Shown piece by piece: positions 8,549 to 52,123 of a stretch of 64,000 bases of DNA (positions within the stretch are counted from its first letter, which is position 1; every line of letters starts with the position of its first letter). Source of the DNA: Kiritimatiellia bacterium (GTDB lineage: Bacteria; Verrucomicrobiota; Kiritimatiellia; CAIQIC01; Lenti-01). The DNA lies in assembly GCA_017527155.1 (NCBI GenBank), contig JAFXQI010000060.1, forward strand, positions 1 through 64,000, given 5' to 3'. A program made the position numbers and the translations under genes. The notes under the pieces are model-generated. The model had not been told where the DNA came from. It made no database searches and saw only the letters and a list, made by a program, of their open reading frames with translations.

Positions 8549-9628
8549 ATGGCAACCTTGGGTTCCCAAGCACTGACGCTCCGCGACACCGCCGAGGCCG
8601 CCCGCAATAAAGACGGCAGCCTCAAGGCGAACATCCTCGATCTCGTGTCCGAGGACAACGGAGTCCTCGACGACACGACGTTCATGCGGGCCGACGACGG
8701 CGACAAGCTGTCGACCGACTTCCGCAACCTCAATCCCCACGGCACGTGGGTGGCGCTCAACGAAGGCGTCCCCGCATCCAAGACCGGCTTCTCGACCGCA
8801 TGGGACACCTGCGGGCGCATCAAGGCGCGCATCGAGATTCCGATGGACACGTGGAACAAGACCAAGGACAAGGAAGCGCTCTGGCAGATGCACGTCAGGG
8901 CCCACCGCGAAGGGCTGCGAGAGGACGTTGCGACGGCCCTCTTCTACGCCAACATCGCCAACGAGCCGCGGAAGTTCAACGGCCTCTGCGACTTCTACGA
9001 CAAGTACGGCTATGCCGGCGCTACCCGCAAGCAGTTCTTCTACAACGTCATCAACGGCGGCGAGAGCGACGTCGGGACCGCCGGCGGCACCGCGGGCACC
9101 CTGCTCAACTATGTCAACGCCTCGAAGCCTCTCCGCTCCATCTGGCTTGTCGGCTGGGGCGAATTGGCCACGACGTGCTTCTACCCCGAGGTCAGCAAGT
9201 ATGCCGGCCTGACGTTGGAGCCGATGAAGGAAATGCAGCTCCAGGACGCCAACGGGAATCCCATCTGGGCTCAGACGCAGGAAATCATCTGGGAGGTGGG
9301 ACTTGCCGTCCGCAACTTCCAGAAGACCGGGCGCATCTGCAACGTCCAGCTCGAGACCGCGCAGTCCACGGCGGACTACGCGAAGAGCCTGATCAAGCAC
9401 ATGCGCCATCTCCGCGGCCGCGTGAAGGACGGCGGCGTGCGCAAGGCCTGGTACATGACGCAGGACCTCTGGGAGACCGTCGAAGATGCGCTCTTCGCGA
9501 TGACCCAGGGGAACGCCATCAAGTACGGCGACCTGCAGCAGTCCAAGCCGGACGCGCTGTGGGGCATCCCCATCCACATCTGCGACTGCCTCGACACCGA
9601 CGAACCCCTCGTCACCAAGGCCGCCTGA
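8549..9628 (+). CDS. Major capsid protein (GP7/Bbp17-like)
   Basis: A 359-residue capsid subunit. The N-terminal segment ATLGSQALTLRDTAEAARNK followed by ILDLVSEDN, and the central FNGLCDFYDKYG and NASKPLRSIWLVGWG segments, fit the GP7-type major capsid family of BPP-1-like podoviruses, which has the HK97 fold. It lies between scaffold and cement genes with a strong AGAAAGGAA ribosome site before ATG 8549. It should be the most abundant virion protein. Confidence 0.88.
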   Translation: MATLGSQALTLRDTAEAARNKDGSLKANILDLVSEDNGVLDDTTFMRADDGDKLSTDFRNLNPHGTWVALNEGVPASKTGFSTAWDTCGRIKARIEIPMDTWNKTKDKEALWQMHVRAHREGLREDVATALFYANIANEPRKFNGLCDFYDKYGYAGATRKQFFYNVINGGESDVGTAGGTAGTLLNYVNASKPLRSIWLVGWGELATTCFYPEVSKYAGLTLEPMKEMQLQDANGNPIWAQTQEIIWEVGLAVRNFQKTGRICNVQLETAQSTADYAKSLIKHMRHLRGRVKDGGVRKAWYMTQDLWETVEDALFAMTQGNAIKYGDLQQSKPDALWGIPIHICDCLDTDEPLVTKAA

Positions 9629-18143: not shown

Positions 18144-18704
18144 ATGACGAAACTGGACATCTGGAACCGGGCACTGGCGATGCTGCCGCACGACATTCCG
18201 GTGGGGACGGAGGAGGAAGATTCGACGGAGGCGCGCCGGTGCCGACAGAACTACGACTCGGCGCGGAAGGCGGTCCTGACGGCGCGGGAGTGGGGCTGGC
18301 TGGCGCGGGAGACGCCGGCGTGCTGCGGGGCGGCGCTCGGCGGCGGCGTATGGCTGCACGAGGCGCCGCCGGACGCGCTGCTGGTGCTGGGGCTGGTGGC
18401 GACCGACGGCCGGCGGATCAAGGCGCAGGCGGTCAACGGCGGGCTCCGCGCGCTGGAACCGTTCGCGGCCTGCCGGTATCTGCCGGACGAGGAGGACCCG
18501 GGTGCATGGCCGTTCGCGGTCCAGGAGGCCGTCGTGGCGGAGCTGGCGGCGCGAATCTGCCCGGTCCTGACGGACAACCCGCAGCGGACGCAGCAGCTCC
18601 GGTTGGACGCGCTGGCGCGCCTGGAGGAGGCCGGACGGCAGGATGCGCAGCGGACGGCCTACGGCGGCGGCGACCCGCTGGTTTTCGCTCACGCGAGGAG
18701 GTAG
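18144..18704 (+). CDS. Tail tubular protein A (T7 gp11-like)
   Basis: A 186-residue protein forming the adaptor ring between portal and nozzle in short-tailed phages. The start MTKLDIWNRALAMLP, the RRCRQNYDSARKAVL motif and the EWGWLARE motif match the gp11-type family pattern ('YD.AR...L....W.FA'). Length is normal for the family. The gene is followed after 3 bp by tail tubular protein B, the conserved pairing. Confidence 0.88.
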   Translation: MTKLDIWNRALAMLPHDIPVGTEEEDSTEARRCRQNYDSARKAVLTAREWGWLARETPACCGAALGGGVWLHEAPPDALLVLGLVATDGRRIKAQAVNGGLRALEPFAACRYLPDEEDPGAWPFAVQEAVVAELAARICPVLTDNPQRTQQLRLDALARLEEAGRQDAQRTAYGGGDPLVFAHARR

Positions 18705-18707
18705 GGA

Positions 18708-21317
18708 ATGGCCCAGCGGATGGTCTACAACGATTTCGTGGCCGGCGAGATCTCGCCGGAGCTTTGGGGTCGGCACGACGTGGACATGTACCACCACGCG
18801 GCGGCGAGGATCGAGAACTTCATCCCGCGCCGGACCAGTGGCCTCCGCAAGCGGGCGGGAACGGAGCTTCTGTGGCATCTGGCGCCGGAGACGGAGGGCG
18901 AGGAGCGGGAGTACCGGGTGGTGCCGTACTTCTACGACAAGGATGCATTCGGGCTGCTGGCGCTCTGGCGTGCAGCGGGCTCGCAAAAGGTCCACGCCGT
19001 GTTCCTGGCACACCGGGCGGACGGGACGAAGGTGGAGATTCCGGCCAACGGGACCGAGAACGGGGCGCAGAAGGAGAAGATCGACGTCTTCGAGATCGGC
19101 GTGGGCGAGCGGCTGGCGGACCTGCACGCCATCCAGATCGGCGACACGCTGTTTTTCACGTTCCACGGGCATTCGGCCTTCAAGTGCGCGGTGACGTTCG
19201 ACCTCCCGGAGCCGGCGGTGGAATGGTCCCAGGTCCAGCCGACGGCGAAGCCGGCCGACGCGCCGGCGCTTTCCGCTTCGGCCCACAACTTCCAGACCGG
19301 CAACGCCTACAAGGCGGGGACGCGCACGTACCGCCTGTGGGGCGTCAAGGACGGGGTGCTGAGCAAGGCCAGCGAGGTGACGGTCGGCATCACGCTGGCG
19401 TGGATTTCCGGGGCGTACATCGACGTCAAGTTCACGCCGGACTGGGGTGCCCACGACTACTACATCCTCGGCAAGCTGCAGGGCGGCCAGTACGGCGAGG
19501 TGACGCGCTACTACCCCGGTCTGGACACGGGCGAGCGCCAGGACACGTCCTGGGCCCTCACGACGCACCAGGAGGAACTGATCGGCGGTACCCTCTACCA
19601 TGCCGCCACCATCAATCCCCAGGCGACCTGGAAGGACCCGAACAGCAGCGAGGACGAGGAAACCGCGGACGGCCTGCACGCCAACGGAACGTTCGCCAGC
19701 CGCCTCGAAGGCACTCATACGCCGGCGGACGCGAAGGTCCTGTCGGTGCTGCTCTGGACGGGGGCGATCATGGCGGCCGGCGCCGCGGACGGGACCCCGA
19801 CGCGGGTGGGGCTGGCGCAGCAGGTGACGGCCAAGCTCTGGGCCGGGGAGGACACGTCTGGAACCCCCGTCGAGACGTGGACGTTCACGCCGCAGTACGG
19901 CGAATCCGCGAGAAAGCTGACGGTCGGGCATCCAGCGGCGGCGACGGGCGGGGTCTACACCCTCACCTTCGAGGACGCCGAAGGGATCGAGGTCTACGTC
20001 CCCCTCCGCGGGTGCATCCTGTGCAGCGACAGCGGGACCCGGACCTTCCACGACGACAACATCCAGCCTGGGACGCTCGCCGGGGAGCAGGACGCGCTCG
20101 ACGTCGGCGATGCGGGAATGGACGTCGACTGCATCGCGACGTGGCAGCAGCGCTTGATCGCGGCGGGGTCCAATAATCTGCCGTTCACGCTTTGGTTTTC
20201 CAGCGTGGGCGACCTCTACAACTTCTACACCTCGCGGCCGCAGAACGCCGACGACGCCTTCGAGGCGACGATGGCGGCGACGCGGGCGATGCGCATCCGG
20301 CACATCGTCGCGGAAAAGTGGCTGCTGGTGTTCACGGACACCGGGGAATACATGGTGGACGCGAACGGCGGCGCGCTGGCGTTCAACACCATCGACATCC
20401 GCAAGATCGCGGGCGTGGGAAGCCATGCCGGAATCCAGCCGGCGGCCACCGAGAGCGAGGTGCTGTTCGTGGCGTCCGACGCCCGGAGCGTCTATAAGAT
20501 GGACTACACGCTCGAACGGGACAGCGTGGTCCCGACAAACCTCTCCGTCCGTGCGGGACATATCGCCGAGGCCAGCGCCATCCGGGCTATCGCCTACCAG
20601 CGGTATCCGGACAGCATCCTGTGGTGCCTGCTGGAGGACGGTACGCTCGCCAGCCTAACGTTTTTCCCCGACGAAAACGTCTGCGCCTGGGCGCGGCACA
20701 CGCTCGCCGGCGGCGACGGGCTCAAGGCGGTGGACATCTTCGCGACGGATTCCATCCGGTCGGACGACGGGACGGCCAGCACCACCGACACCTTCCTCGT
20801 CCTCACCCACCCGGACCATCCGGGCGACGTCTGGGTGGAGCGGATGCGGCCGAACGTGGTGGTGGACAATCCCTCCGCCGCCGCCGCCATGTGTGCCGAC
20901 CACATGGGCTACATCACGGACAACGCGGAGGATGCGCAGGGGCTTGCGGACCCGCAGGCCAACGTCGAAGCCTGCCTGGAAACCCTGCGGATCGAGCCGC
21001 AGCAGGCTGACACCATCGGCACCACCACCGCCCAGTTCGGGGCCATCCTGCGCATCCTGCGGTCCGGGGAGGTGGCGGTCCGCCCCGTCGGCGGTACGGA
21101 GTGGCGCAAGGCTGTCGACAAACCAGTCGAGAGATTTCAACCTGGAAAACCATCAAGACCAGTCGTCAAACTCGTCCGCACCGACGCCCGCATCGCCCCG
21201 CAGGTGGTCTGGAACCGGGAGGGCCGGTTCGAAATCCGGTCCGCCGACGAGTGGCCCTGCGACATCCTCTCGCTGTGCATCCTGGGACAGTTCGGAACCA
21301 TGAGAAACGGAGGCTGA
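18708..21317 (+). CDS. Tail tubular protein B / nozzle (T7 gp12-like)
   Basis: An 869-residue nozzle protein that closes the tail tip. The N-terminus YNDFVAGEISPELWGRHDV, followed by ENFIPRRTSGLRKRAG, is the hallmark of this family ('F.gGElSP.l.gR.D...Y..g...neN..p...G...rR.G'). The remaining beta-propeller-like body includes WQQRLIAAGSNN and SSVGDLYNF segments, which are also typical. It starts 3 bp after protein A. Confidence 0.9.
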   Translation: MAQRMVYNDFVAGEISPELWGRHDVDMYHHAAARIENFIPRRTSGLRKRAGTELLWHLAPETEGEEREYRVVPYFYDKDAFGLLALWRAAGSQKVHAVFLAHRADGTKVEIPANGTENGAQKEKIDVFEIGVGERLADLHAIQIGDTLFFTFHGHSAFKCAVTFDLPEPAVEWSQVQPTAKPADAPALSASAHNFQTGNAYKAGTRTYRLWGVKDGVLSKASEVTVGITLAWISGAYIDVKFTPDWGAHDYYILGKLQGGQYGEVTRYYPGLDTGERQDTSWALTTHQEELIGGTLYHAATINPQATWKDPNSSEDEETADGLHANGTFASRLEGTHTPADAKVLSVLLWTGAIMAAGAADGTPTRVGLAQQVTAKLWAGEDTSGTPVETWTFTPQYGESARKLTVGHPAAATGGVYTLTFEDAEGIEVYVPLRGCILCSDSGTRTFHDDNIQPGTLAGEQDALDVGDAGMDVDCIATWQQRLIAAGSNNLPFTLWFSSVGDLYNFYTSRPQNADDAFEATMAATRAMRIRHIVAEKWLLVFTDTGEYMVDANGGALAFNTIDIRKIAGVGSHAGIQPAATESEVLFVASDARSVYKMDYTLERDSVVPTNLSVRAGHIAEASAIRAIAYQRYPDSILWCLLEDGTLASLTFFPDENVCAWARHTLAGGDGLKAVDIFATDSIRSDDGTASTTDTFLVLTHPDHPGDVWVERMRPNVVVDNPSAAAAMCADHMGYITDNAEDAQGLADPQANVEACLETLRIEPQQADTIGTTTAQFGAILRILRSGEVAVRPVGGTEWRKAVDKPVERFQPGKPSRPVVKLVRTDARIAPQVVWNREGRFEIRSADEWPCDILSLCILGQFGTMRNGG

Positions 21318-21319
21318 CC

Positions 21320-22021
21320 ATGCTTCAAGCCATCGCAGCAGGAATCGGAATCGCGGCCCCCATTGCCCAGGGATTCCTCGCGGACTACGCCCAGAACCGG
21401 GCCAACAAGGCCAGCGCCAGCGCGCTCAAACAACAGGCCGGCATCTACGGGGTCCAGGCCGAAGCCAGCCTCCGCACGGCCGCCATGTACGCCAAGCAGG
21501 CCGGAATGAACGTCGCCCTCGGCAAGGGCAACGCCCGGAACCTGCGGCTCGCGGCCGCCAACCTCGACCCGTACGAGCAGTACGCCATGCGGAACGCACG
21601 CGTGGAGGCACGGCGCCGCGTGGGCGAAGGCCGTACGCAGTTCGCCGCCAACGGGGTCATGGTGGACACCGGAGCCGCCGCCCTCTGGGAGCAGGACGAG
21701 GCCGCCGACGCCGCCCTCGAGCGCCTCGACATCATGCAGCAGTTCGAGGACCAGTCCTGGGAGTACCGCACGCAGGCCAACAAGGCCCTTGCCGAAGGCT
21801 ATGCCGCCGCCGCCGCAAACGCCGGTGCCGCCATGGGGGCCGCCGGTGACGCCTACGCCACCCGCCTGCAGCAGTCCGCCGCCTTGGCCCAGGCGAAGCA
21901 GAAGAAGAAAAAAAGCTGGTACAACACCATCGGCGCCGTTATCGGCACCATCGGAGGGGCGGCATTGGGAATCGCAGGCAGCAAATTCGGGGCCGGAAGC
22001 CAAGCCGGTGCCGTACACTGA
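21320..22021 (+). CDS. Internal virion protein (gp14-like)
   Basis: A 233-residue Ala-rich protein. It has an N-terminal hydrophobic segment (AIAAGIGIAAPIAQGFLADY), a long helical body with DPYEQYAMRNARVEARRRVG and QFAANGVMVDTGAAALWEQD motifs, then a basic stretch (KQKKKKSWYN) and a Gly-rich hydrophobic C-terminus (IGAVIGTIGGAALGIAGSKFG). This organisation and position after the nozzle fit the small internal virion proteins that are ejected and help form the trans-envelope channel. Confidence 0.72.
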   Translation: MLQAIAAGIGIAAPIAQGFLADYAQNRANKASASALKQQAGIYGVQAEASLRTAAMYAKQAGMNVALGKGNARNLRLAAANLDPYEQYAMRNARVEARRRVGEGRTQFAANGVMVDTGAAALWEQDEAADAALERLDIMQQFEDQSWEYRTQANKALAEGYAAAAANAGAAMGAAGDAYATRLQQSAALAQAKQKKKKSWYNTIGAVIGTIGGAALGIAGSKFGAGSQAGAVH

Positions 22022-22032
22022 AAGGAGACGCC

Positions 22033-24201
22033 ATGCCAGCCGTGAACCTCAACCGCATCTACATGCTCCGCGCCCGCGAGCGCCGCCCCATCCTCAACGG
22101 GGTCAACGTCCCCGACGCAGCCGGCGCCTACCAGCGCGCCACCATGCCCGCCATCCGGGCCCGGCTCGCCATCAGCGAGAACGACGCCCGCATCAAGCAG
22201 GACGACATCCACCGCAAGTACCAGGGCATCGCCACCGGCATCCGGGCGTTCGGCAACGCCCTCGACACGACTTCGCGCTACATGGAACAACGGGAACGGG
22301 AAATGGAGCGGGCCCAGGCACGGCAATCGGCATCGACGAGGATGGAGGTCGAAAACCGCTACGGCAGTACATGCTGGACCACGCGCAGGAAATCTACGAA
22401 ACGCCATACGGCCGGGAAACGGACGGGGCCGGCAACCTGAAAATCACGGGGCCGTTTTCCAAGGCCCTCGAGGTCCACAATGGCTTCTGGGACAACGACA
22501 CGAAGGCGGCCGAACTTCGGGAAACGCTCGGCGAGGATGACCGGGCGAGGCTGGAACAGGAGTACACGAACTGGGGATTCGCTCTCCAATCGGACTCCGC
22601 AAAGAAGCAGTCGGAACTCAACCAGCAGTACATGCTGAAAAACTGGAAGGACCGGGGCAACACGCTGAAGGGGGAGATCTCCAACAGTCTCGAACGTGGT
22701 GACGTCGATGCATGGAAGCGCTCGATGATGGAATACGTCGAGTTCGCCGGCGAGGGGGCCAAAATCGAGCTGGGCATCCGTGACCTCGGAGGTGGTCTGA
22801 AACGTCAACCGACGGAGCAAGAGGCCGCCACCATCTCGGACGTGAAACGGGCGACCGCCGAAACGCTCGCCATGGAACGCATCGAGTTCCTCCACCGCGC
22901 CTACATCATGGACGGCGACGCGGACACCCTCGCCGAAATCCAGGCATGGGGCGCCGAACAGGCCCTGTCGGATGCCGGCCGCCTGCACGCGCGGGAGCTG
23001 GCCGCGGACGCGGAGACAAAACGGAAGCAGGTCGTGGCAAACCAGATGGCGGAGGCGGACAATACCGCCTGGAATGCGGCCAACCAGCGGCTCGAGGAAG
23101 TCATGGGGCTTGACAACCCGATGGAACAACGGGAGGCGTTCTGGGAGTTGCGCGAAACCCGATTCCACGACCCGCAGAAGAAACGCGAGCTGAACGAGAA
23201 AATCGACGTGCGGCTGGACGCCGTGAACACCGAGGAGGCGTACGGGGCACTGGCGCTGATTGCCAAGGATGCCGGGAATCCGAACATCATCCACATGGCG
23301 GACAAATGCCGACGAAAGGTAGAGAACATCGCGGATCCAAAGAAGCGCGAGGCGGCGCTGACCCTCCTTGACGGGCTCGTCGGGGATGCGGAATTCGTGT
23401 CGTGGAGGGAGAAGTACGACAAGGCAATCGGCGAGATCGAACAGATGGACTTCGACCCGGAAGCGCTGGACGAAGTCCATGGAAGGGTCCGCCAGCTTAT
23501 CGGAGAAATCGCAGGGTTCAGGAGTGCGCGTGGCAAACAGCTGGCCGCCGAACACACGGTCGCCGTGCGGAACGAAATCCAGGCGCAATACACCCAGAAG
23601 ACGGTGGACGTGTTGAAACACAGGTGGTACCGCGACCCCGCAACGGGGAGGCTCGTCAACCAGGACAAGCTGGATGCGCTCGACACGTTCGACAAATGGA
23701 TCCCGTTCATGGACCGCAAACAGCTGGATGAGGTGGCGGAGGCCTTCTCGAAGATGCCCGTCCCGCTGCAAGAAGAGGACTTCGCCGGACTTGGGGGACT
23801 GGCTTGGCGGCAACGGCGTGGCTGACTTGTTCGACTGGAACAAGATCGACGAAAAAGGGGAAATGGCCCTCGCCAAGAGTTGGGGAGACGCGAGGACACG
23901 CGACATCAAGCGCGGACGGGGGCGCGTCGATGTCGATCGCCGCCTGGCCGGAGAGATTTACAGGGCCGTGGAGAGCTATGTCCGACTCCGGGACATGGAC
24001 ATGCTCCAGAAGGGAAACAAGGCGAACATGTCCATCGCCGAGTTCATGGAGGACTACTACAGGCAACACCCCGACAATCTGGCGGCATACCGATCCGCGA
24101 GCCTTGCCGAAAGGGTCGCGATGACCCAAGTGGCCCTCGAAAACGCGACCGCCGCTTCGGTTTACGGCCCGTTCGCCGATGACGAAGAAGAAGGAGACTG
24201 A
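22033..24201 (+). pseudogene. Internal virion protein (gp15-like), frame interrupted twice
   Basis: The gene would encode about 722 residues, but its frame shifts twice. It starts at ATG 22033 in one frame. Near 22345-22360 coding sense moves to another frame (…MEVENR then RQYMLDHAQEIY…). Near 23790-23805, in a G run, it returns to the first frame (…DWLGGNGVADLFDWNKIDEKG…). The net change is zero, so both ends are in register. The protein is charged, helical and Glu/Lys/Gln-rich, consistent with the mid-sized ejected protein. The cause could be two assembly or base-calling indels, or real decay. No canonical slippery heptamer is seen at either point. Confidence 0.6.
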
Positions 24202-24203
24202 AG

Positions 24204-27200
24204 ATGCCCTATTCCGCAACCTACAGGAGCCAGCTCCGCAGCGACATCACACGCGCACGGCGGCTCGGTCCGGACGCCACCGACAGCGAAGTCGAATGGG
24301 GTCTGGCGACGTTGTACGGCGGGATTTCCGGCCGCGACTTCCGCCTCCCGGAGGACATGCGCGCAGACCCGCGAGGTTCGCTGGCCAAGCTGCAGGAGGT
24401 GTACGACACGGGCTCGTTCGAGGCCATGCAGACGGACTCGCTCAAGCAGGTCAACGAGCTGTTGAAGAACAAGGACTGGCGGGCCCTCGCCGACATGGGA
24501 AAGAAGTCGGACACGATCTTCGACGATGGCTTCGACGCGAACCTGCTGGATGAAAGCGACCGATCCGAATGGCAGCGTCTGAACGACAAGGATGTCAAGT
24601 GGAAGCAGGAACGGGCCAGCGCGGCATACGTCGGGGCGAAGCCCCCGGACGGGCTATCCACGGAAGAGCAGCGCCGCCTTGGCGAACTCGTCGACGAGGC
24701 CAAGACCCGGACCGCCGCCATGCGGCAGGTTGAACGCGTGCGCCGGGAGAATGCGGCGGTCATGCTGCTCTCGATTTCTCCGGAGCTTACCGACCGGAGC
24801 CATGCCATCATCGAACGCGCCATCGCGAACAACTTCAGGATCACGGCCGAGGACCAGGATGCATTCCTGCCGGAGGAGATGGGCGGCCTGGACAGCGGGC
24901 AGAAGGAATTGCTTGCGGCCTACATGAATTACGTCCGGCCGACGGAAGGCAAGGGTGCCTGGGCAAAGTTCACGGGACGGATGCTGGACCAGACAGGGCA
25001 GGTCCTCGGAAGCACGGCGGACGACATCGCGGACCTCTGGAAGTTCGCAACGGATTCGTCGTACCGCAATGGCGGATACGATGCCGAGATTGAACGGCGG
25101 GCGTGGTTGGTGCAGGCAAACGCGAAGAAGTTCGCCGATCTCGGAGTCTGGGGCAACACCTTCGCGGAGGCCGGCGGAGTGATCGGGTACTGGGCCCCCA
25201 TGCTGTTCGAGACGGTGGCAACCGCCGGAATCGGGGACATCGGTGCCGCAGCCGGTGCCGCCAGGTTGGCCGCCAAGGCCGGAGCGGCCGGCCGGTTCGC
25301 TGGACGCCTTGCCACGTTGCCTGTGCGCAAGCTCTCCCATGTCATGTTCATGGCGGATTTCCGACAGCAGTTCCTGCAGCGCATAGCACTCGATGGAGGA
25401 GACCCGGCAAGCGCCGAGTCGCAGATTGCGGCCTCGGTCGGCGCGCTTGCCTCCGATCTCGTGGAACACATCCAATGGGGCAAGGCCTTCGGAAAAACCG
25501 CGATGCCCGAGGTCGTGTCCCAGGCTTACTCCAAGCTGACGCACGGCATCTTCGCAAAACTCGGCATCAAGGTCGGGAAAGAATTCGGCCAGATGACCCT
25601 CGGGAAGGCCGCCGCACAGGTGGTTGGAGAGCGCCTGGTTTCCATACCGACGGAGGCCATCGAGGAAGCGATCCAGCAGGCCATCGAGGAGGTCGTCGTG
25701 GACATTGGCGACGGACGCGGCATCCGCGGCATCCGCCTCGCCAACCTCATGGATCAGAGCGCAGAAGCCTTCGTCAAGACCATCGGCCCCATGGCATGGG
25801 TGTCACTGTCCGGTTTCCCGATGCGGGCGCGGAGCGCCTACACGATGCACAACCTCGACAAGGGAGCCATCGACCGCCTGCTTACGGCCGGGGAACGACT
25901 CAAGCGGGCTGCGGCTACCGGCCAGCTCGAGCTCAAGGGAGAAGACATGGGTGTGCTTGGACGCCTGATGCACATGACGGCACGGGCGGTAACGCCGGCC
26001 GAGGCGTACTGGTCGCTGCGGGAGCGCGGGTTCACGAAGGACCAGGCCGATTCCATGCTGAAGACGTTCGCGGCAATCCGGCGCTCGGCAATCGAACAGG
26101 GGCAGACGGGGGAACTGGGGGCGGCCATCCTGCAAGCGGGCGAGGAACTGGAACAGGGTGGATTCGAGTTGAAGAGGAATGCCGACGGCTCGAGCTCGTG
26201 GACGCGGGTCCAGACAGACGAGAACGGACATAAACGGCGGCAGACGTTGAAAATCGTGTGGGAGCCTTTCCAGGAACTGGACATGGATTCCCCGGCGCAG
26301 GTTGGGTCTGCGCTGGAGTACATTCGAGAGAATGAATCCGAACAAGGCAAGGAGGCATTGAAACTTCTGGGTCTGGACATCGCCCGCCCCAACGCCAAAA
26401 TCATGGCCGACGCGGCCGCGATGAACGCCCTCGGGATGTACGTCGCGGAGAACGAACTGGGCGACGTCGCGAATTCGCTGGCGACCGGGACGACGAAGTC
26501 GAAGGAGGCGGACGGGACGGAAATCGACGAGGACACGTACACGATCACGCTGACCGAGAAGGCGACGCGCGAGAGCATCTGGCACGAGGTCGGGCACGCG
26601 GCGGGATACGCGCTGCGGCGGATGGGGCTGTCGGAGGAGGAGATCGACGCCATCCAGAACTGGCGGAGCGGGGAGGACGGAAAGGCCCCAAGCGAGGCCG
26701 ACATGGCGCTCCCGGAACACGCCGGCGCGGGAGGAACGGAACTCTACGGGGAGGAGCGGGTCAACTACGAGCTCGCCGGCGAAATCGCCCGGAAGAATGA
26801 ACCCAAGAGTGCGTTCGCCAGGGGGCTGGAATACGTGGGCGACCTCGTCCGGAACGTCCTGCGGATCCGGAAGAAGGCGGAGGAGGTCGGCAACGCGGCC
26901 GCCATCATGACGGAACTCATCTGGCACGGGCACCTCGGGAAGCTCGACACCCTGAACGACGCCCAGAAGCGCGTCCTGCTCGAGGCCCGCCGCCGGCGGC
27001 AGGCCGCGGAAACCGGTGGCGAGGCCCCTCCGTCCCCGGAGGGACCAAGCTCTGCCGGAGAGGGACCAAGCTCCGCCGCGGAAGGGACCAAGCCCGCCAC
27101 GTCCGTCAGGCCGCCCGACGAGCGCACCGTCGCCAATTTCTGCTTCGACCGCCCCATCCTCCGCGACGACATGGCCAGGCTCTCCGCCAGCGGGGAACTC

Positions 27201-30200
27201 TCCGAGGACGACATCTTCGAGACCGGCTACCGGTGGAGTCCGTTCCTCCGCGCCTGGGTCGTGCAACCGGAGTTGAAGGGGCAGACGTTCACACCCAACG
27301 GCCGGTACATGGGGCTGGACGGGGAGTGGAAGGGGGAGGACGCGCGGGCGATGGTAGGGACATTTGCGGACGGAACGCATTTTGTCGAAGTCGATGACGT
27401 CCCGGATGAAATCCGAAATGAAACAGACCCAGACAAGCTGCGCACCAGCGTCAGGAATCTGATCCGAGAAAAATGGATGAACCGCATCATCGACCCGAAT
27501 GGGGTGCGCGTGTTTGTCAACGGGGCGACGGCACAAGAATACGTCCAGCCGGCAAAGGAGCTGGATGACAATGCCTTCCGGGCCAAGATGGATGCGGCTG
27601 GAAAACTTGACGAAGTAGTATCAACTTCCACCAATCCACAAAACGCACCAGATGGAAGGGATGGCCATGTCCACAAAAACGTCAAGGAGTGGGAATACCG
27701 GGATGCCATCTTCCACGTCAACGGGCGCTATTACGGAACTCTCGTAAACATTGCCGTCATAGAGACGGTCGGTGGTCGAAAGGGGAATTTCCGGAAGCTC
27801 CATGACATTACCCAAATAAAAGACATCACCGACGAAGTTCGGAATCTCCATGGAGACCCTGTTGGGGAACTCCAATCGTACCCATCTACCGTCGGTGACA
27901 ACGCGAATGAACCTCCAAACGCGCCCGGCGTCAACTCCGAAAATCAGGGGCGGTCGGAAGTCGGCTCCCGCCGCATGTATGCGGCGGCGCAGAACCTCCC
28001 GTCCCCGGAGTTCGCGATGGACGGGACCATCGTGGATGCGCTGCCGGCGCACCTGCGGGAGGACGCGCGCGCCATCGTCGCCGAGCGCGGCGGGACGGCC
28101 GCGTGGATGGTCGAGGCGGACGGGACGCCGACGGAACTCAACGAGAGGGAGTGGCTGCGGAGGGAGGCGGAGAGGCGGCACGTGGCGGGGCGGCGGTTCG
28201 CAATCGGAGGGCTGTACACCGGCAGCGCCGCCGACTACGCCCCGCGCGATGAGAACGGGAACATCGTGAACGGGCCGAGTCTGCTCAAGATTGGGAGCGG
28301 CGAGGGTAGCCAGGTCTATGGATGGGGACTGTACGCCAGCAACATGAGAGGAGTGGCGGAACAATATGCGCAATACGCTTCAGGGAAACACCCGGAAGGA
28401 GAACTCCTGGTTGACGGGAAACCCGTGAGAGGGAAGCTGTCCAAGGTTGTTGACGGGGTGCTGGTTGGGACCGTCAAGGGGGCCATACTGAACGCCGCCT
28501 CCTGGGTCGGGACACGGAACACAGACGGCATCGTGGAGTTTCTTGAAAATATACTTGCCGAATATGAATCCGTCGCCTCGACCGAAGGACGTCCGGAAGA
28601 GCACAGGGCACAAGCTCGGCTGAATGCAAGTTGCTACAGAGAGGCCATTGAACTAGTCAAGAGCGGCCGGGCGGTAGTCGGGGAGAATTGGCGTCCCCAC
28701 GTCTACGAGCAAACCTTCTTCACCGACCGTGCGACGCCGGAAGAGACGGAGCGGCACCTGCTCAAGTGGTACGAGGCGGTGCCAGACGAGCAGAAACAGT
28801 GGATTGCCGGACAACTGGAAAAGGAGAATCCAGGGAACAAGTTCCTTCTGGCGGCCGTGGAAGAGGCAAAGACGGGAGCGGAGCTTTACGAATTGCTTGC
28901 CGAGGAGTTGATTCCCGCCGAGCGATTCGTCCAAGAGAGGACGCAGCATGGGCGCGGAGCAAAATCCGGCGAGCAGGCCGCCAGCGAGTTCCTGGCCCGC
29001 GCGGGAATCGACGGCATCAAGTACCCCGTGAACAGCTACGGCAAGACGGTCAAGGACGGCGACGCCGCCGGCTGGAACTACGTCAGCTTCAGGGACGACA
29101 ACATCAAGGTTGACCACAAATGGGTAGACGGGGAACAGCGCTACCAGATTGCCGGAACGGAGGGGGCGGCGCGCCTCGGCATCCGGGGCCTGGGGGATGC
29201 AGAGGCCATGGAACGAAGCGGGGCCACGCGGGAGGAAATCTGGAGGGAAACAGGCTGGTGGAGGGGGGCGGATGAAAAGTGGCGGATAGACGCCCCGGTC
29301 AAGATGACGCAAGAGGAACGCACTGCAACGCCGCCATGGGAGACGGAGAACGTGGAGGAGGGGCGGCAGATTGTGCGGTTCCAGATCGGCGGGAAGGCAG
29401 AAGACGGAAAAACCACCGCCCAAGGGCCGCTATCGGAATCGGATCAAACTCCGCCGGTGCAGTTTAGCGGTGGTGCAACTTCAATCCCCTTGACACGCGA
29501 AAGTGCCGATCCGGTGATGAAATTCGCGGAAACCATAGTCATGGACGGCGCGAAAAGTCCAGAAGATTTTCTGGTCGGCATCTTCGGTGCGCTCGGTTCG
29601 CAGGAAACCAACCCCAACAAGACGCAATACTTCGACATCACCCAGCCCGACGGCCGGACCTTGTCCCTGCGGACGGCCAACCACCGCGCCACCGCCCACC
29701 AGTACACGGAACACGGCAACACGGCGGACGAAAAGCTGTCCGTCGTCGTGAAGATGAGCGAGAAGCCCTTCAAGAGCGACAAGGACGTGCAACTCACGGA
29801 ATTCGTCTATTTCCCCGACAAGCTGACCGCCGAAACGGAGGCGGGCATTGCAAAGGGACTTGCGGAGTGGATTCGCACCGGCAAGTACACGGGGCCGAAT
29901 GCCGACCAGGTGAATGTTTCCCCCAAACAGCGCGCCGGACAGGCGCGGCAGCAAGTCGGCGGGCGCATCCGGGAATACGACCATGAGCCGGTTTACAGCC
30001 CGCGGGGACAGCTGGCGGCGCTGGCGACGATGTACCTCATCCAGGGGAAGGAGCCGGACCGGGGGAACCTGCAGCAGATCAAGGAGCGGCTCGGGGAGCA
30101 GGGGGACCTGGACGCCATCATCGCGGAGGCGAAGGCGAAGCACGGGAGAATCCTCGAAGACCTGAAGGCGAAGGGCCGGAGGGCGAGCGCTGGCGAAATC

Positions 30201-33200
30201 GCGCGGGAAGCGGCGCGCCGGACGAAGGCGGCGCACCCGGAGGACCTGCTGGAGGAGGCGTACAAGCGCGGCGCGGCGGCCGGTACGTGGGCGCAGGGGG
30301 CACGCGGGGCGGTGCTGTCGACGCTGATCGGGGAGGCGAGGAGCGACAGCTACCACGACTTCGCGCTGGAGATGGGGCTGGACATCGCGGGCATCTACCA
30401 CCGGTTCGCGCTGCAGCAGGCGCGGAAGGAGGAGGCGGCCGGTCACGGGAAGGGCACGGAGTCGGAGGAGGAGGGGGCGGACCAGGCGCTCGAGAACGCG
30501 GTGGGCTTCGCGGAGGGCGCGCAGGGGCCGCTCGACCCGAACAGCGAGGCGGGACGGGCGCTCTCGGAGCTGGAAACGCGCCAGCAGGAGAACATCGAAC
30601 GGGCGCTCCGGGAGGCCGACATGGACTGGGAGGAGCGGAACCGCCTTCGGGAAGAGCGTCGGCAGCGGCGCCTGGAACGGGAGCGGGAGGCGGAAGCGGC
30701 CGGCGAAGGCTCCGGGGAGGGCGAAGGCGGCGGCGGGGAAGCGGTCGAGGACGTCCCGGAGGGGATGGACGAGAACGACCTGGCGGTGGACATCCTGGAG
30801 CGGAACCGGGTGGACATCCGGGATCCGTGGAAGTTCGCGCTCTTCCTGCGCAAGGCGATCCGGAACCGCATCCTGAAGGCGAACGGGCTGCCCGTGGACT
30901 TCGCCACGCTGGACGAGGCGCTGGCGGCCGAGGAACGGCTGTGGCAGAACCCGACGAACGTGGCGCAGTTCGCCAAGTCGATGGCCGCCATCCTCAAGGA
31001 CATGGCGGGCCGCCTGATGGACCACGCGGGGGAGACATACCCGGCGGTGCTGGTGAAGCTGGAACAGCTGGCCCGGATGCAGAACGTTGGGGCCATTGAG
31101 ACACAGGCGGCATTCGAGATCGCGACCATCGCGCGGCGGAGTATCCGGGAAACGAGCGCCAAGATGGTGAACGCCACGATCAAACGGCTGGACAAGAGCT
31201 ACATCGGCAAGCACCGGTTCGGGGAACACGACGAGCTGGAAGAGGACCTCAAGCGGAAGATCACGGGGCATGTCCGGCGGATGGCCATGTGGTGCAACAC
31301 GGTGCTGGGACTGTCGGAGGGGGGTGTCGAGCGGGAACGGGAGAATCTGCTGAATGCACGAAACGAACGAAGCCGGGCACTGAAAGAGGCAGAGGCCAAT
31401 GGCGCAATCGGCACCAAGGCCGAGGATGACGCTGTGTACGCGGAGACGCTCTGGAAGCTCAAGGTGTTGGAAACCTATGGCGGGACGCGCTACCTGCTGC
31501 CGGGGGAGGCCCGGGAGAAGCTGATGGAACTGGAACGCTGGATGGCCACCGAGAGCCTCAAGCAGGCCGCCAAGATCGAAATGACGAGCCGCCAGTACAA
31601 AAAGGACCGGGAAACCATCATCGAAGGATGTGCGGTCATCGATCCGAAGACGGGCCAGAAACGCGTCTGGGGAAAAGACACATGGGCCGACAAGGCTTGG
31701 CGGGCCATGGTCAACACCATCAACCAACGTCTTCGGTATCTGTTTGCCAGGGCAAGCGGAAAGTGGCGGACTTCCACGGACGAGCTCCTTTCGCGCGTCA
31801 GCCTCCTGATTTCGCAAGGGACGACGCAATCCATCATCGAAGAACAGGAATTGCGGCGCGCCCTTGTGTGTACGGTGCGGGAGGTCGTCGGGCCGCGCGG
31901 GGTCCGAAAATGGCTCAAGAGGATGCTCAAGGAAATACCGGAAGAACACTCCGTGGCGATTTCGAAACAGGGCCACCGGGACTTGCGATACGGCCAGGTG
32001 ATGCACCTGTACGGGTACCTGCGGCAGACGGCGACCTACGGGGACAATATCGCGAGGTACGGGCGCGTGGGCCAGCGGCAGTACATCGAAAAAAACATTC
32101 TCGCGGCGGAGGACATCAAAATCCTCAATGGAATGATGCGCATCTACGCGGAACAGCGGCCAAAGATTGACGCGGCAAGCCGGGACATCACGGGGTTCGA
32201 GATGAAGTCGCCGGACCCGTGGTACATGCCGGTCAAGATCAAGACGCCGACGCGGAGCGGGCTGGAGACGGTGGTCTCGACGGTGGAGGCAATGCCGGCC
32301 GTGTTCAGCGAACGCCGAAAGCACCAGATGGACGTGGACGAGACGGCCGACATCATGGAGGTTTACCACGACCGCATGAAGAAGACGGCACAAGTGTTGG
32401 GGCGGGGGCGCACCGGGCTGGACATCATCCACACGTTCGGCAACGCGGCGGTCAAGGATGCCATCACGGAAGCACGGGGTGAGGAGTTCACGAATGCGCT
32501 CATCGCGCACTTCACCGACTGGATGCACGGAGGACGGCCAAGGCTGGTCAATTCTTCGGGGGGAGATGCCGCATTCCTCAACGGGCTACGTACCGCGGCG
32601 GTCTACCAGGCGCTGTGGGGAAACTCCCTTTCGGCGTTCAAACAGACGCTTTCCGCGCCGGTGCTCAAGCTGGCGCGGAAAATCGGGGACCGTGGCATCT
32701 TCCAGGACATCGCGGGGCGATTCACCAAGGGCTGGAAACAGGCAAAGGTGGAGTTGACCCAGAGCGATGCATGGAAGGCGCGCTACGGCGACGTGGGCGT
32801 CATGCAGGAGACGCGCGAGGCCATGCTGGGGGCCGGTGAGGGGAGCATCTGGCAAGCGTTGCTCAGGGCCGGGATGGCACCGCTGCAATGGGGCGACCAA
32901 CGGCCGGCAATCATGTGCCAGGTGACGGAATACATGATCAAGCGCGACGAACTGATCGAGGGCGGCATGGAGCCGGAGGCGGCAAAGCGGCTCGCCGCCG
33001 ACATCGCCATGCAGGATGTCGAATGGACGCAGCAGAGCAGCCGTCCCGAAAACCTCCCCCAATACATGAGACGGGGCGACAGCCTGGTCCGGATGCTGAT
33101 GATGTTCGCCAGTTCCCCCATGCTTCAGGCTGGTTGGGAGATTCAACACTACATCGAGAAGCGCGAGAAACGGGAGGCTTTCGGCGAGAACTCCAAGGAG

Positions 33201-33632
33201 GCACGGGATGCCAACAAGAGCTTCTGGACCGCCATCATGATAAACCACGTCGTCATGCCCCTGGCGTTCCAGGTGGCCGGAATGATCTTCTACGGGGTCC
33301 TGGGCAAACGGGAGCCGGACAAGGACGACCTGAAGGAGTTGTTCTGGTCCATGTTCATCGGCCCGTTCGCGCGGCTGGCGTTCTGGGGAGGGACGCTCAA
33401 GGCCATCTATGACATATACACGGGGCGCGATCCGTTTGGGCGGCGTACAGATGCCGCCCCGTCCATGCTGGTCAACAACTCCCGCAACATCATGGACATC
33501 CTGGGAACCATTCCTTTTGATGCCATGACCGGCGACATGGACAAGGTGCTGGAGGATATCGACCGGTTCATGAAACGCAACGTTGCCCCGTACCGGCACG
33601 TCCGCATGATTCAGGACGCGTGGATGAAGTAA
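24204..33632 (+). CDS. Giant polyvalent ejection protein (3142 residues)
   Basis: Very large protein in the position of the T7 gp16-type internal virion protein. Visible parts: helical N-terminus; Ala/Gly-rich hydrophobic region (about 320-400); HEVGH zinc-metallopeptidase motif (about 794-798, WHEVGHAAGYAL); an LPD3-like segment (about 1123-1190, EYRDAIFHVNGRYYGTLVNI); an ART-like polyvalent domain (about 1336-1660, GSGEGSQVYGWGLYAS near 1370 and GIDGIKYPVNSYGK toward the end); a RelE/barnase-like segment (about 1766-1860, LRTANHRATAHQY); charged coiled coils (about 2130-2220); and a C-terminal LPD38-like region (about 2665-2980, DVEWTQQSSRPENLPQYMR) with membrane segments. Polyvalent proteins are thought to travel into the cell with phage DNA and counter host defences. 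Domain names other than HEVGH are by pattern only. Confidence 0.75.
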   Translation: MPYSATYRSQLRSDITRARRLGPDATDSEVEWGLATLYGGISGRDFRLPEDMRADPRGSLAKLQEVYDTGSFEAMQTDSLKQVNELLKNKDWRALADMGKKSDTIFDDGFDANLLDESDRSEWQRLNDKDVKWKQERASAAYVGAKPPDGLSTEEQRRLGELVDEAKTRTAAMRQVERVRRENAAVMLLSISPELTDRSHAIIERAIANNFRITAEDQDAFLPEEMGGLDSGQKELLAAYMNYVRPTEGKGAWAKFTGRMLDQTGQVLGSTADDIADLWKFATDSSYRNGGYDAEIERRAWLVQANAKKFADLGVWGNTFAEAGGVIGYWAPMLFETVATAGIGDIGAAAGAARLAAKAGAAGRFAGRLATLPVRKLSHVMFMADFRQQFLQRIALDGGDPASAESQIAASVGALASDLVEHIQWGKAFGKTAMPEVVSQAYSKLTHGIFAKLGIKVGKEFGQMTLGKAAAQVVGERLVSIPTEAIEEAIQQAIEEVVVDIGDGRGIRGIRLANLMDQSAEAFVKTIGPMAWVSLSGFPMRARSAYTMHNLDKGAIDRLLTAGERLKRAAATGQLELKGEDMGVLGRLMHMTARAVTPAEAYWSLRERGFTKDQADSMLKTFAAIRRSAIEQGQTGELGAAILQAGEELEQGGFELKRNADGSSSWTRVQTDENGHKRRQTLKIVWEPFQELDMDSPAQVGSALEYIRENESEQGKEALKLLGLDIARPNAKIMADAAAMNALGMYVAENELGDVANSLATGTTKSKEADGTEIDEDTYTITLTEKATRESIWHEVGHAAGYALRRMGLSEEEIDAIQNWRSGEDGKAPSEADMALPEHAGAGGTELYGEERVNYELAGEIARKNEPKSAFARGLEYVGDLVRNVLRIRKKAEEVGNAAAIMTELIWHGHLGKLDTLNDAQKRVLLEARRRRQAAETGGEAPPSPEGPSSAGEGPSSAAEGTKPATSVRPPDERTVANFCFDRPILRDDMARLSASGELSEDDIFETGYRWSPFLRAWVVQPELKGQTFTPNGRYMGLDGEWKGEDARAMVGTFADGTHFVEVDDVPDEIRNETDPDKLRTSVRNLIREKWMNRIIDPNGVRVFVNGATAQEYVQPAKELDDNAFRAKMDAAGKLDEVVSTSTNPQNAPDGRDGHVHKNVKEWEYRDAIFHVNGRYYGTLVNIAVIETVGGRKGNFRKLHDITQIKDITDEVRNLHGDPVGELQSYPSTVGDNANEPPNAPGVNSENQGRSEVGSRRMYAAAQNLPSPEFAMDGTIVDALPAHLREDARAIVAERGGTAAWMVEADGTPTELNEREWLRREAERRHVAGRRFAIGGLYTGSAADYAPRDENGNIVNGPSLLKIGSGEGSQVYGWGLYASNMRGVAEQYAQYASGKHPEGELLVDGKPVRGKLSKVVDGVLVGTVKGAILNAASWVGTRNTDGIVEFLENILAEYESVASTEGRPEEHRAQARLNASCYREAIELVKSGRAVVGENWRPHVYEQTFFTDRATPEETERHLLKWYEAVPDEQKQWIAGQLEKENPGNKFLLAAVEEAKTGAELYELLAEELIPAERFVQERTQHGRGAKSGEQAASEFLARAGIDGIKYPVNSYGKTVKDGDAAGWNYVSFRDDNIKVDHKWVDGEQRYQIAGTEGAARLGIRGLGDAEAMERSGATREEIWRETGWWRGADEKWRIDAPVKMTQEERTATPPWETENVEEGRQIVRFQIGGKAEDGKTTAQGPLSESDQTPPVQFSGGATSIPLTRESADPVMKFAETIVMDGAKSPEDFLVGIFGALGSQETNPNKTQYFDITQPDGRTLSLRTANHRATAHQYTEHGNTADEKLSVVVKMSEKPFKSDKDVQLTEFVYFPDKLTAETEAGIAKGLAEWIRTGKYTGPNADQVNVSPKQRAGQARQQVGGRIREYDHEPVYSPRGQLAALATMYLIQGKEPDRGNLQQIKERLGEQGDLDAIIAEAKAKHGRILEDLKAKGRRASAGEIAREAARRTKAAHPEDLLEEAYKRGAAAGTWAQGARGAVLSTLIGEARSDSYHDFALEMGLDIAGIYHRFALQQARKEEAAGHGKGTESEEEGADQALENAVGFAEGAQGPLDPNSEAGRALSELETRQQENIERALREADMDWEERNRLREERRQRRLEREREAEAAGEGSGEGEGGGGEAVEDVPEGMDENDLAVDILERNRVDIRDPWKFALFLRKAIRNRILKANGLPVDFATLDEALAAEERLWQNPTNVAQFAKSMAAILKDMAGRLMDHAGETYPAVLVKLEQLARMQNVGAIETQAAFEIATIARRSIRETSAKMVNATIKRLDKSYIGKHRFGEHDELEEDLKRKITGHVRRMAMWCNTVLGLSEGGVERERENLLNARNERSRALKEAEANGAIGTKAEDDAVYAETLWKLKVLETYGGTRYLLPGEAREKLMELERWMATESLKQAAKIEMTSRQYKKDRETIIEGCAVIDPKTGQKRVWGKDTWADKAWRAMVNTINQRLRYLFARASGKWRTSTDELLSRVSLLISQGTTQSIIEEQELRRALVCTVREVVGPRGVRKWLKRMLKEIPEEHSVAISKQGHRDLRYGQVMHLYGYLRQTATYGDNIARYGRVGQRQYIEKNILAAEDIKILNGMMRIYAEQRPKIDAASRDITGFEMKSPDPWYMPVKIKTPTRSGLETVVSTVEAMPAVFSERRKHQMDVDETADIMEVYHDRMKKTAQVLGRGRTGLDIIHTFGNAAVKDAITEARGEEFTNALIAHFTDWMHGGRPRLVNSSGGDAAFLNGLRTAAVYQALWGNSLSAFKQTLSAPVLKLARKIGDRGIFQDIAGRFTKGWKQAKVELTQSDAWKARYGDVGVMQETREAMLGAGEGSIWQALLRAGMAPLQWGDQRPAIMCQVTEYMIKRDELIEGGMEPEAAKRLAADIAMQDVEWTQQSSRPENLPQYMRRGDSLVRMLMMFASSPMLQAGWEIQHYIEKREKREAFGENSKEARDANKSFWTAIMINHVVMPLAFQVAGMIFYGVLGKREPDKDDLKELFWSMFIGPFARLAFWGGTLKAIYDIYTGRDPFGRRTDAAPSMLVNNSRNIMDILGTIPFDAMTGDMDKVLEDIDRFMKRNVAPYRHVRMIQDAWMK

Positions 33633-50207: not shown

Positions 50208-50615
50208 ATGGGACGGCAAGGAAAAATCAACAAATCCACCGAAGAACTCGCCGAACTCCTCAAGAAGGCGTTCGGCAACGTCAGCGCCGTCGCCCGCGAA
50301 CTCCACGTCACCCGACAGAGCCTCTGGGCGCGCATCAACAAAAGCAAATCCCTCCAGGACGCCATCGAAGAAGCCCGCGAGACCATCGTCGACATCGCCG
50401 AAAGCAAACTCTTCAAGGCCGTCGGCGCCGGCATGGAGTGGGCCGTCAAGCGCGTCCTCGACAGCAAGCGCGGCCAGGACCGCGGCTGGCGCCCGCCCAT
50501 GCAAATCCAGGTCGACGGCCGCCACGAGGTCAAGGTCGCCCGCCTCGATGAAGCCGTCGGCGCCGAAATCCTCGCACGCCTCAAACCCCGTGACGCCGAC
50601 ACGCCGGCGCCGTAG
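50208..50615 (+). CDS. terS: Terminase small subunit
   Basis: A 135-residue protein. A helix-turn-helix (AFGNVSAVARELHVTRQSLW) lies near residues 22-45, followed by EARETIVDIAESKLFKAV and EWAVKRVLDSKRGQDRGW. It sits directly upstream of TerL with a one-base overlap, the standard pairing. It recognises the packaging site and regulates the motor. It is a paralogue of the protein at 33659-34036. Confidence 0.8.
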   Translation: MGRQGKINKSTEELAELLKKAFGNVSAVARELHVTRQSLWARINKSKSLQDAIEEARETIVDIAESKLFKAVGAGMEWAVKRVLDSKRGQDRGWRPPMQIQVDGRHEVKVARLDEAVGAEILARLKPRDADTPAP

Positions 50616-52123
50616 TGGACGTGACCTATGCCGAAGCCAGGGCCTACCACCGCCGCGTGATCGCCAACGGCGACCTCGCCGCCATCCGCGTCCTCTGCAA
50701 GACCGACCGCTACTTCCTGCTCACCGCCGTCCTGGGCGTCACCGTCGCCCTGCATCCGTGGGTCTACGAGCGGTGCCGCGAGGTCGAGGCCGAACCCGAC
50801 GAGCGTCTCGACCTCTGGAGCCGCGGTCACTTCAAGTCCACCATCATCACCTACGCCGGCATCATCCAGGAAATCCTCCGCAACCCCGAAATCACCGTCT
50901 GCATCATGAGCTACAAGGCCGCCGCCGCCCAGGCCTTCCTCTCGCAAATCAAGCGCGCCTTCGAGTCCAACCCCGTCCTGCTCGCCGCCTTCCCAGACAT
51001 CCTCTTCCCCGAGCGCGCCGACCACACCGGCGACCAGTGGTCCGTCAAGGGTGGCATTACCGTCAAGCGCAAGTCCACCCGCAAGGAACCCACCATCGCC
51101 GCCTCCGGCCTCGTCGAAGGCCAGCTCATCGGCGGACACTACGACCTCCTCGTCTACGACGATGCCGTCGTCCCCGAATCCGTTTCCACCCCCGACCAGG
51201 CCCAGAAGACCACCAACGCCTGGTCCATGTCCCTCAACCTCGGCACCGAGCAGTCCCGCCACTGGTACATCGGCACCCGATACGCCCTCTTCGACACCTA
51301 CGACTACATGATCAAGCACGGCATCCGCGAGCGCCGCCACCTCGCCATCGACGGCGACGGCAACCCCGTCTACTGGCCCAAGGCCGAACTCGAAGAACGG
51401 AGAAAAATCATGACCACCAAAGACTGGGCCTCCCAAATCCTCCAGCAACCCACCGGCGAAGGCGAACTCGTCTTCCGCCCCGAGTGGATGCAGCGCTACC
51501 GCACCATGCCCGACCGCTCGTCCATGAACGTCGCTATCCTCATCGACAGCGCCAACGCCAAGCGCACCGCCAAGGGCGGCAGCGACTACACCGTCGAGCT
51601 CGTCGTGGGATGGTGCCGGGACCGCAACTACTACCTCCTCGACGCCGTCCGTGACCGCATGAGCCTGGCCGAGCGCACCGCGTGCCTCTTCGAGCTGGTC
51701 GAGAGGTGGCAGCCGAACGGGGTATTCTGGGAGCAGGTCGGCGCCATGAGCGACGTCGCCCACGTCCGCGAGCGCCAGGACCAGACCGGCTGGCACTTCG
51801 GCATCACCGAACTCCACCAGACCGTCCCGAAAGACGATCGAATCCACTGGCTCGAACCGACCTTCCGCAACAGCCGCATCTGGACCCCGCAGCACCTCTG
51901 GCGCCGGAGCGTGACGGGCGAAGCCTACGACTTCATGGAAGTCTTCGAGCGCGAAGAATACCTCTCCTACCCATCCGTCAACCACGACGACATGCTCGAC
52001 GACCTCGCCAACATCCACCATCCCACCGTCACCGCCACCATGACCTTCCCCATCGCCCCCCAACCTCCGCTCCCCTCCACACCCGCCACAACCCCCACCG
52101 AATGGCGCCCCGCCAACTGGTAA
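50615..52123 (+). CDS. terL: Terminase large subunit
   Basis: A 502-residue packaging motor and nuclease from GTG 50615. Walker A is SRGHFKST at residues 69-76. Walker B is LLVYDDAV near 180. The coupling region is CIMSYKA. The C-terminal RNase H-like nuclease has VAILIDSANAK (first Asp), FWEQVG and NHDDMLDDLA (last acidic pair). All motifs are intact. It is the last phage gene; in the circular phage map it would be followed by the portal block at 4568. Confidence 0.9.
   Translation: MDVTYAEARAYHRRVIANGDLAAIRVLCKTDRYFLLTAVLGVTVALHPWVYERCREVEAEPDERLDLWSRGHFKSTIITYAGIIQEILRNPEITVCIMSYKAAAAQAFLSQIKRAFESNPVLLAAFPDILFPERADHTGDQWSVKGGITVKRKSTRKEPTIAASGLVEGQLIGGHYDLLVYDDAVVPESVSTPDQAQKTTNAWSMSLNLGTEQSRHWYIGTRYALFDTYDYMIKHGIRERRHLAIDGDGNPVYWPKAELEERRKIMTTKDWASQILQQPTGEGELVFRPEWMQRYRTMPDRSSMNVAILIDSANAKRTAKGGSDYTVELVVGWCRDRNYYLLDAVRDRMSLAERTACLFELVERWQPNGVFWEQVGAMSDVAHVRERQDQTGWHFGITELHQTVPKDDRIHWLEPTFRNSRIWTPQHLWRRSVTGEAYDFMEVFEREEYLSYPSVNHDDMLDDLANIHHPTVTATMTFPIAPQPPLPSTPATTPTEWRPANW

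Follow-up and report, generated by a model that had tools for sequence, protein, structure and literature searches.

A putative giant ejection protein with a non-canonical ART-fold domain in a podovirus-like element from Kiritimatiellia

When a phage infects, its ejected proteins are what the host encounters first, and phages often make use of ADP-ribosylation. ADP-ribosyltransferase (ART) domains of phage polyvalent proteins are described as using a His on strand 1, a Tyr on strand 2 and an Asp on strand 5, and a zincin domain has been proposed to release the cargo of such proteins (both PMC5512222). For H-Y-E enzymes, the His and Tyr are described as stabilising the conformation of bound NAD (PMC10789625). 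In the podovirus ejection core, T7 gp16 is reported to carry a transglycosylase (PMC11440229). Here we analyzed a 64-kb stretch of a Kiritimatiellia contig (JAFXQI010000060.1, hereafter the window) that contains a giant gene. On balance we favour reading its product as the last and largest ejection protein of a podovirus-like element, in which a scaffold-type C-terminus is joined to cargo, a zincin and a non-canonical ART domain ("canonical" being our own label for the His-bearing ART set).

Gene order around the giant gene

The giant gene is one ATG-started frame of 3142 codons without internal stop, as originally predicted, and its G+C contents at codon positions 1, 2 and 3 (65, 45 and 81%) are coding-like. 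Judged from gene content, the element spans about 4.5 to 52.1 kb, of which this 9.4-kb gene would occupy the predicted fifth or so. The giant gene is preceded by TTP-A, TTP-B, phrog_418 and one unnamed gene (Table 1), and its position after other internal virion proteins is that of T7 gp16. To its right lie an exonuclease and DNA methyltransferases, followed at the far right by the small and large terminase subunits. A similar run occurs in the phage record vir555 (phrog_394, phrog_376, one extra gene, phrog_418, a 566-aa gene and a 1974-aa giant with a canonical ART and HEIGH). In L029, the viral contig holding the nearest full-length relative found, the giant comes after a homologue of the phrog_418 protein (69%) and the gene that follows it. 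This gene order favours the giant protein as the final ejection protein of a podovirus-like element.

Table 1. Features of the giant gene and of the element in window coordinates
Feature	Position	Strand	Remark
Portal/adaptor (phrog_332)	5021-6850		PHROGs
Major head protein (phrog_212)	8549-9628		PHROGs
Tail tubular A-like, TTP-A (phrog_394)	18144..18704	+	
Tail tubular B-like, TTP-B (phrog_376)	18708..21317	+	
Internal virion protein (phrog_418)	21320..22021	+	
Gene without named family, in the place of a second internal protein	22033..24201	+	three pieces, two frames
Giant ejection/polyvalent protein gene (putative)	24204..33632	+	3142 aa, 348 kDa
N-terminal ~690 aa, without named domain	24204..26273	+	matches in L029, L017
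Zincin-like metallopeptidase region, aa ~759-905	26478..26918	+	HExxH conserved
HEVGH motif, aa 794-798	26583..26597	+	
Candidate third zinc ligand, Glu851 or Glu856 (ERxNxE)	26754..26771	+	
ART-fold domain, aa 1331-1644	28194..29135	+	VIA-align to 9k3a_B
Thr1339 (codon ACC) where canonical ARTs have the catalytic His	28218..28220	+	
LPD23 domain, aa 1651-1694	29154..29285	+	Pfam PF18838, E 3.6e-10
Module X, without named family, aa 1705-1907	29316..29924	+	
Conserved C-terminal domain, aa 1926-3136	29979..33611	+	matches in nine other loci
Hydrophobic stretch, candidate membrane segment, aa 3010-3034	33231..33305	+	

The gene adjacent upstream is broken into pieces at 22033-22440, 22371-23825 and 23791-24201. 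The first two match one unbroken frame of L029 (3423-5783), and the third has no match. These breaks may reflect decay, assembly error or a programmed shift; with this gene frame-shifted, the window's copy of the element may not make virions. The frame shifts, the LPD23 domain and the His-to-Thr change in the ART domain are all additions to the original prediction.

With the terminase (50208-52123) at the right end and the portal at the left, the map looks as if opened between the two. A 19-bp flanking repeat, TGTCCGCGAAGCGGTTTTC (4114 and 52443), was rejected as an att site: it is a dispersed repeat, because the genome holds 16 copies, 11 of them in one orientation. No integrase was recognised among the 19 proteins scanned with PHROGs, and the 64-kb window contained no tRNA and no Rfam match. 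On the minus strand of the right flank, two long frames overlap, 52620-58262 (1880 aa, no Pfam match) and the better-scoring 53012-58240 (1742 aa).

Modules of the giant protein

Whole-protein scans of viral contigs and genome contigs found no relative; relatives were found by scans with an alignment of the window and L005 ART domains, and then with later alignments. PHROGs and PDB sequence searches named no domain at useful E-values, and PDB searches by sequence profile returned nothing relevant. Phage records gave two weak matches to aa 1-2999, vir555 (24% over 10% of the query) and MW202785 (short, 56%, in the LPD23 region), and none to the C-terminal 1217 aa. Within its own genome, the C-terminal 1210 residues match only themselves. 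Two proteins of a viral structure library matched at E <0.001, one unnamed (3.4e-6) and one annotated as "large polyvalent protein associated domain" (5.1e-4), adding just that this protein type is already known. A match in locus G039 was rejected as a relative, the locus being one for polysaccharide export. The N-terminal ~690 aa match L029 at 26-30% and, weakly, L017 (25%, E 0.004). Over longer stretches, identity to L029 is 26% (aa 183-1056), 51% (aa 1243-1698) and 31% (aa 1926-3136).

The metallopeptidase region carries the intact HEVGH motif of the original prediction, and HExxH is kept in 3/3 aligned proteins, the window's and two relatives (HEVGH, HEHVH, HEHTH); a metallopeptidase scan of viral contigs returned no further relative. 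An ERxNxE motif follows 53-58 residues after HExxH, and its Glu851 and Glu856, invariant in 3/3, are candidate third zinc ligands rather than proof of one. In the AF2 model, the region forms two strands, the HExxH helix and then further helices at a pLDDT of about 40-70, and Glu856 opens a following helix in a stretch with pLDDT near or below 50. A downstream third ligand, raised in the original prediction, has thereby gained two invariant candidates in a low-confidence part of the model.

LPD23 is the sole Pfam match on the whole giant protein at E up to 1 (39.9 bits against a cut-off of 27). Together with the ART fold and the HExxH region, it gives the polypeptide the disparate domains, at least two, by which polyvalent proteins are recognised. 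The other predicted modules were not recovered. A Pfam search of the full-length sequence (E up to 1) gave no match to LPD3 or PBECR (RelE/barnase-like), and neither they nor LPD38 matched at E up to 10 in slices covering most of it; for the proposed LPD38-like C-terminus, 0/10 C-terminal sequences matched Pfam LPD38 at E up to 10. LPD3 is found in the relatives L029 and L044, and PBECR5 in L029 and in the protein of L037. Several effector activities had been foreseen; only the metallopeptidase motif keeps the expected residues, and no nuclease-like segment was found.

Sequence comparison indicates that modules move among the giant proteins of these relatives. A 61% copy of aa 1665-1907 lies upstream of the ART domain in L044. 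In the L037 protein (RGIG3480, JAFSUH010000237.1, goat rumen; 55% identity over giant aa 1181-1698), PBECR5 follows LPD23 in place of module X, and in L029 it follows a 62% copy of the linker aa 1699-1730, ~350 residues after LPD23. The L037 locus looks rearranged, because its giant frame continues into an ExbD match (aa 2791-2910), which suggests a rearranged or truncated prophage beside a host exbD locus. Contig ranges place apparently two giant frames on opposite strands of one viral contig, IMGVR_UViG_2799112320_000004 (L018 and L027), one of 3851 aa with an ejection-core-like C-terminus and one of 3216 aa with a Thr-form ART.

The giant proteins contain repeated copies of a short motif, R[FY][SAQ][IVL], several of which lie next to a joint between modules (74 observed versus 13.2 in shuffles; reversed control, 23 versus 14.6). 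Its R[FY]S[IVL] form has 57 matches in 77 proteins >800 aa, in just 12 context groups; of the 23 other orderings, 22 yield 2-18 matches, and [IVL]R[FY]S, which overlaps the motif, yields 42. The flanks of R[FY]S[IVL] are not clearly linker-like, and homologous copies inflate the counts. Sites lie at aa 1331, 1646 and 1725 of the window's giant protein and at aa 481, 1302, 1485, 1720, 1982, 2184 and 2644 of L044. The window's protein has non-Ser forms only (RFAI, RYQI, RFQI, plus RFAL at aa 2067, off the known joints). A processing site or a recombination seam is possible.

The C-terminal domain recurs, whole or in large part, at the C-terminus of giant frames in the nine other loci (21-32% identity), and the aligned sequences are likewise hydrophobic at the position of the candidate membrane segment. 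A model of aa 2190-3142 is nearly all helical (pLDDT 63). Among 934 aligned chains, it ranked the PhiM1 ejectosome first (8vb2_A, Z 7.8, 281 aligned), the T7 core fourth (9jyy_I, Z 7.0, 254 aligned), the E1004 core 15th (9vvp_L, Z 6.1, 201 aligned) and the core chain 7eyb_I 18th (Z 5.7, 187 aligned), with rmsd values of 5.8-11.8 Å and with Z scores of a size that helical models reach by chance. Ranks 2 and 3, which tie with rank 1, are potassium-channel chains (Z 7.4 and 7.3, just 72-74 aligned). Run by itself, Foldseek returned no PDB entry at E <= 0.001 with either this model or that of aa 691-1702. The phage-core matches coincide with the gene order, and from the two we infer, weakly, that the C-terminus may be podovirus-ejection-core-like. 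No Pfam or PHROG match to a lytic transglycosylase was found in the giant protein.

The ART-fold domain and its Thr-form clade

In the model of aa 691-1702 (overall pLDDT 58), residues 641-954, corresponding to aa 1331-1644, align with 9k3a_B at Z 9.7 over 160 residues (VIA-align; next row, 7.0), and PARP-1 entries score about 5 across that range, as do unrelated rows. The matched chain is A4L_27, a 1717-aa protein of the pre-ejectosome of Anabaena phage A-4L (cyanophage A4) with the motif YHGT; its matched part (1419-1606) begins seven residues upstream of the YHGT His (His1426 by our count). The predicted ART-like domain is thus borne out in its fold and in the motifs GEGSQVYGWGLY (from aa 1366) and GIDGIKY (from aa 1601), with an active site in which the His is a Thr and the Asp, in this copy, an Asn. 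Structure prediction, named originally as a check on both the ART and the peptidase fold, returned the former; for the latter, no zincin match in the PDB was listed for the aa 691-1702 model, in a comparison that barely covered the zincin part.

In the window, the first ART motif reads YTGS. Thr occupies the His position in 18/18 members of a Thr-form clade, the window included, and His occupies it in 84/84 canonical phage ARTs, in a sampling that kept the best 80 of at least 596 confirmed loci. Distant members with a readable motif are split evenly between Thr (3/6) and Ser (3/6): the first three, from the same bacterial class, have Thr twice and Ser once, and L061, L064 and L066 have Thr once and Ser twice. 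A hydroxyl residue is therefore present in 24/24 clade and distant sequences (21 Thr, 3 Ser), and the Thr of the clade is coded by three synonymous codons (ACC, ACG, ACA). The strand-2 Tyr is retained, as Tyr1377 in the window and as Tyr in 105/105 sequences. At the triad Asp, the window reads YPVN (Asn) and canonical sequences, among the matches listed, mostly YLD; the clade has D 13, N 4 and E 1 one column further on, and distant members A in 3/3. The motif order Y[H/T]G[ST]...GxGEGxQxYGWGLY...NYVxF is common to the clade and canonical phage ARTs, and the residues of the glycine-rich and NYVxF motifs rank with the most conserved in the domain.

The scan patterns behind these counts did not include the His/Thr motif. 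The 105 sequences are distinct (107 before two identical ones were merged) and exclude L043 (which shares its length and the start of its sequence with L027), L036 (motif-1 region not recognisable), genome-search copies of named loci and the fragments L056, L060 and L062, which lack motif 1; the distant loci L061, L064 and L066 stand outside the 105, L064 and L066 being near copies. Of seven loci from one of the relative scans, alignments A5 and A9 omit L019 and L021 (duplicates of contigs already included) and L023 (tblastn 27%, no phmmer match). Intermediate forms may be under-sampled, because both sets were drawn with clade-specific alignments and from the best 80 of at least 596 loci. In a midpoint-rooted tree with long branches (53 rows: 32/84 canonical, 18/18 clade, 3/6 distant), a branch supported at 100/99 separates the clade from all other rows, and a single change suffices for the T/H label. 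The ART domain is under purifying selection in close pairs (dN/dS 0.16-0.60 in the 14 closest of 153 clade pairs), with a value of 0.17 for the window and L037, at a dS of 2.07 near saturation.

At E up to 10, PF18760 (ART-PolyVal) matched none of three clade slices (window, L005, L041). It matched 4/4 canonical slices, each at E 0.0012 or better and one of them above the cut-off; the L005 slice had a DUF3990 match below threshold (E 0.029). The lack of a Pfam match does not prove that a site has changed, because A4L_27, with its YHGT, has no Pfam ART match either and was also missed by an ART profile search by sequence. In L038 and L044, and just below the cut-off in L024, an ART-PolyVal match lies elsewhere in the same protein as the Thr-form ART, so that the Thr form is there an addition; the canonical profile found no second ART in the window's genome. 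The clade profile matches 17/345 genomes of the class at E <= 1e-6, that of the window among them, and all nine genome-contig loci of the clade scan are labelled Kiritimatiellae, Verrucomicrobia or Lentisphaerae. We found no description of the Thr-form clade in literature searches or by a text search of PMC9503650, which is a weak absence. As judged from its residues, the Thr-form ART is a conserved non-canonical clade within a known kind of protein. ADP-ribosylation by the window's domain should not be assumed on this evidence, and the clade is a reason for caution in labelling domains of this kind active ADP-ribosyltransferases.

Proposed role and comparison with known systems

The original view of a polyvalent, probably ejected protein agrees with the gene order, the weak podovirus-core match of the C-terminus and the ejectosome match of the ART domain. 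We hypothesize that the C-terminal part would act as a gp16-like helical ejection scaffold that sits over the portal and exits with the DNA, as its position and weak fold similarity suggest, and that the N-terminal and middle parts would be swappable cargo. After ejection, the HEVGH zincin would most likely cut the cargo from this scaffold. A host-directed protease effector, or processing of the protein before or inside the head, is a credible if somewhat less probable role for the HEVGH domain, since all of these are discussed for polyvalent metallopeptidases (PMC5512222). That the element is a decaying prophage and its giant gene a relic appears unlikely: the upstream gene is split where L029 has one open frame and the PHROGs scan recognised no integrase, but the giant frame is open over all its codons, the ART region of the window/L037 pair evolves under constraint even if dS is near saturation, and the upstream frame shifts may be assembly errors.

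The ART module keeps the fold, the Tyr and the glycine-rich motif, and would most likely bind NAD, ADP-ribose or a partner, or carry out an altered chemistry; since it lacks the NAD-stabilising His and is yet under selection, plain ADP-ribosylation is less likely than either. We therefore give low credence to an ordinary active effector in which Thr or another residue replaces His. The retained Tyr and GxGEGxQxYGWGLY motif, the purifying selection and the ART-PolyVal domains of L038 and L044 (L024 near the cut-off), which imply that ART function is useful to these phages, would all fit such an enzyme. Against it stand the His itself, present in every canonical sequence among the matches listed and in 0/24 clade or distant ones, a triad Asp position that, one residue on from its canonical place, holds Asn in the window and varies among Asp, Asn, Glu and Ala in the other clade and distant members, and the NAD-stabilising role described for His and Tyr (PMC10789625). 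An equally improbable account makes the Thr form a dead packing module without ligand, kept for assembly or threading; both triad positions besides the Tyr do differ from the canonical state, but the glycine-rich and NYVxF motifs remain among its most conserved residues, and a hydroxyl residue is kept in every clade and distant sequence read.

Beyond ligand binding or altered chemistry in this one protein, we tentatively propose, as a rather doubtful extension, that phages infecting Kiritimatiellota and related bacteria have a distinct, functional Thr/Ser-Tyr ART clade, delivered by the ejectosome and freed by the zincin, in which ADP-ribose transfer has been replaced, for example by NAD or ADP-ribose sensing or sequestering while the host mounts an NAD-based defence, or by new NAD chemistry. 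An ART fold that is kept while its His has changed, under purifying selection and sometimes beside another ART, suggests a second use at infection, and this idea is directly testable because the solved cyanophage A4 ejectosome provides a template.

Phage polyvalent proteins (Iyer et al. 2017), as described in PMC5512222, resemble the window's protein in being giant and multidomain, encoded beside virion genes and equipped with a zincin motif, an ART fold and LPD domains, and in having modules moved between relatives. The window's protein differs in lacking the H of the H-Y-D site, in a C-terminus that has no LPD38 match and looks podovirus-core-like, and in having no recognised nuclease in this copy. 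Relative to phage ARTs near PF18760, its clade has exchanged His for Thr (Ser in some distant members), and the Asp has drifted. Cyanophage A4 A4L_27 (9k3a chain B) belongs to a solved pre-ejectosome and likewise has an ART-fold domain (the Z 9.7 match), but is shorter, keeps YHGT and has no HExxH. The T7 and PhiM1 ejection core proteins, whose compared chains we took as gp16/TEP from chain length and symmetry, share the position after TTP-A, TTP-B and other internal proteins and may resemble it, weakly and at fold level only, in the helical C-terminus; the window's protein is much longer, carries polyvalent cargo and has no transglycosylase match. The N4 virion RNA polymerase, as described in PMC12633501, is giant and ejected, and it too combines an HExxH domain with a large C-terminal domain made of helices; in the window's protein, where no polymerase was found, an ART domain and LPD23 lie between the HExxH and helical domains.
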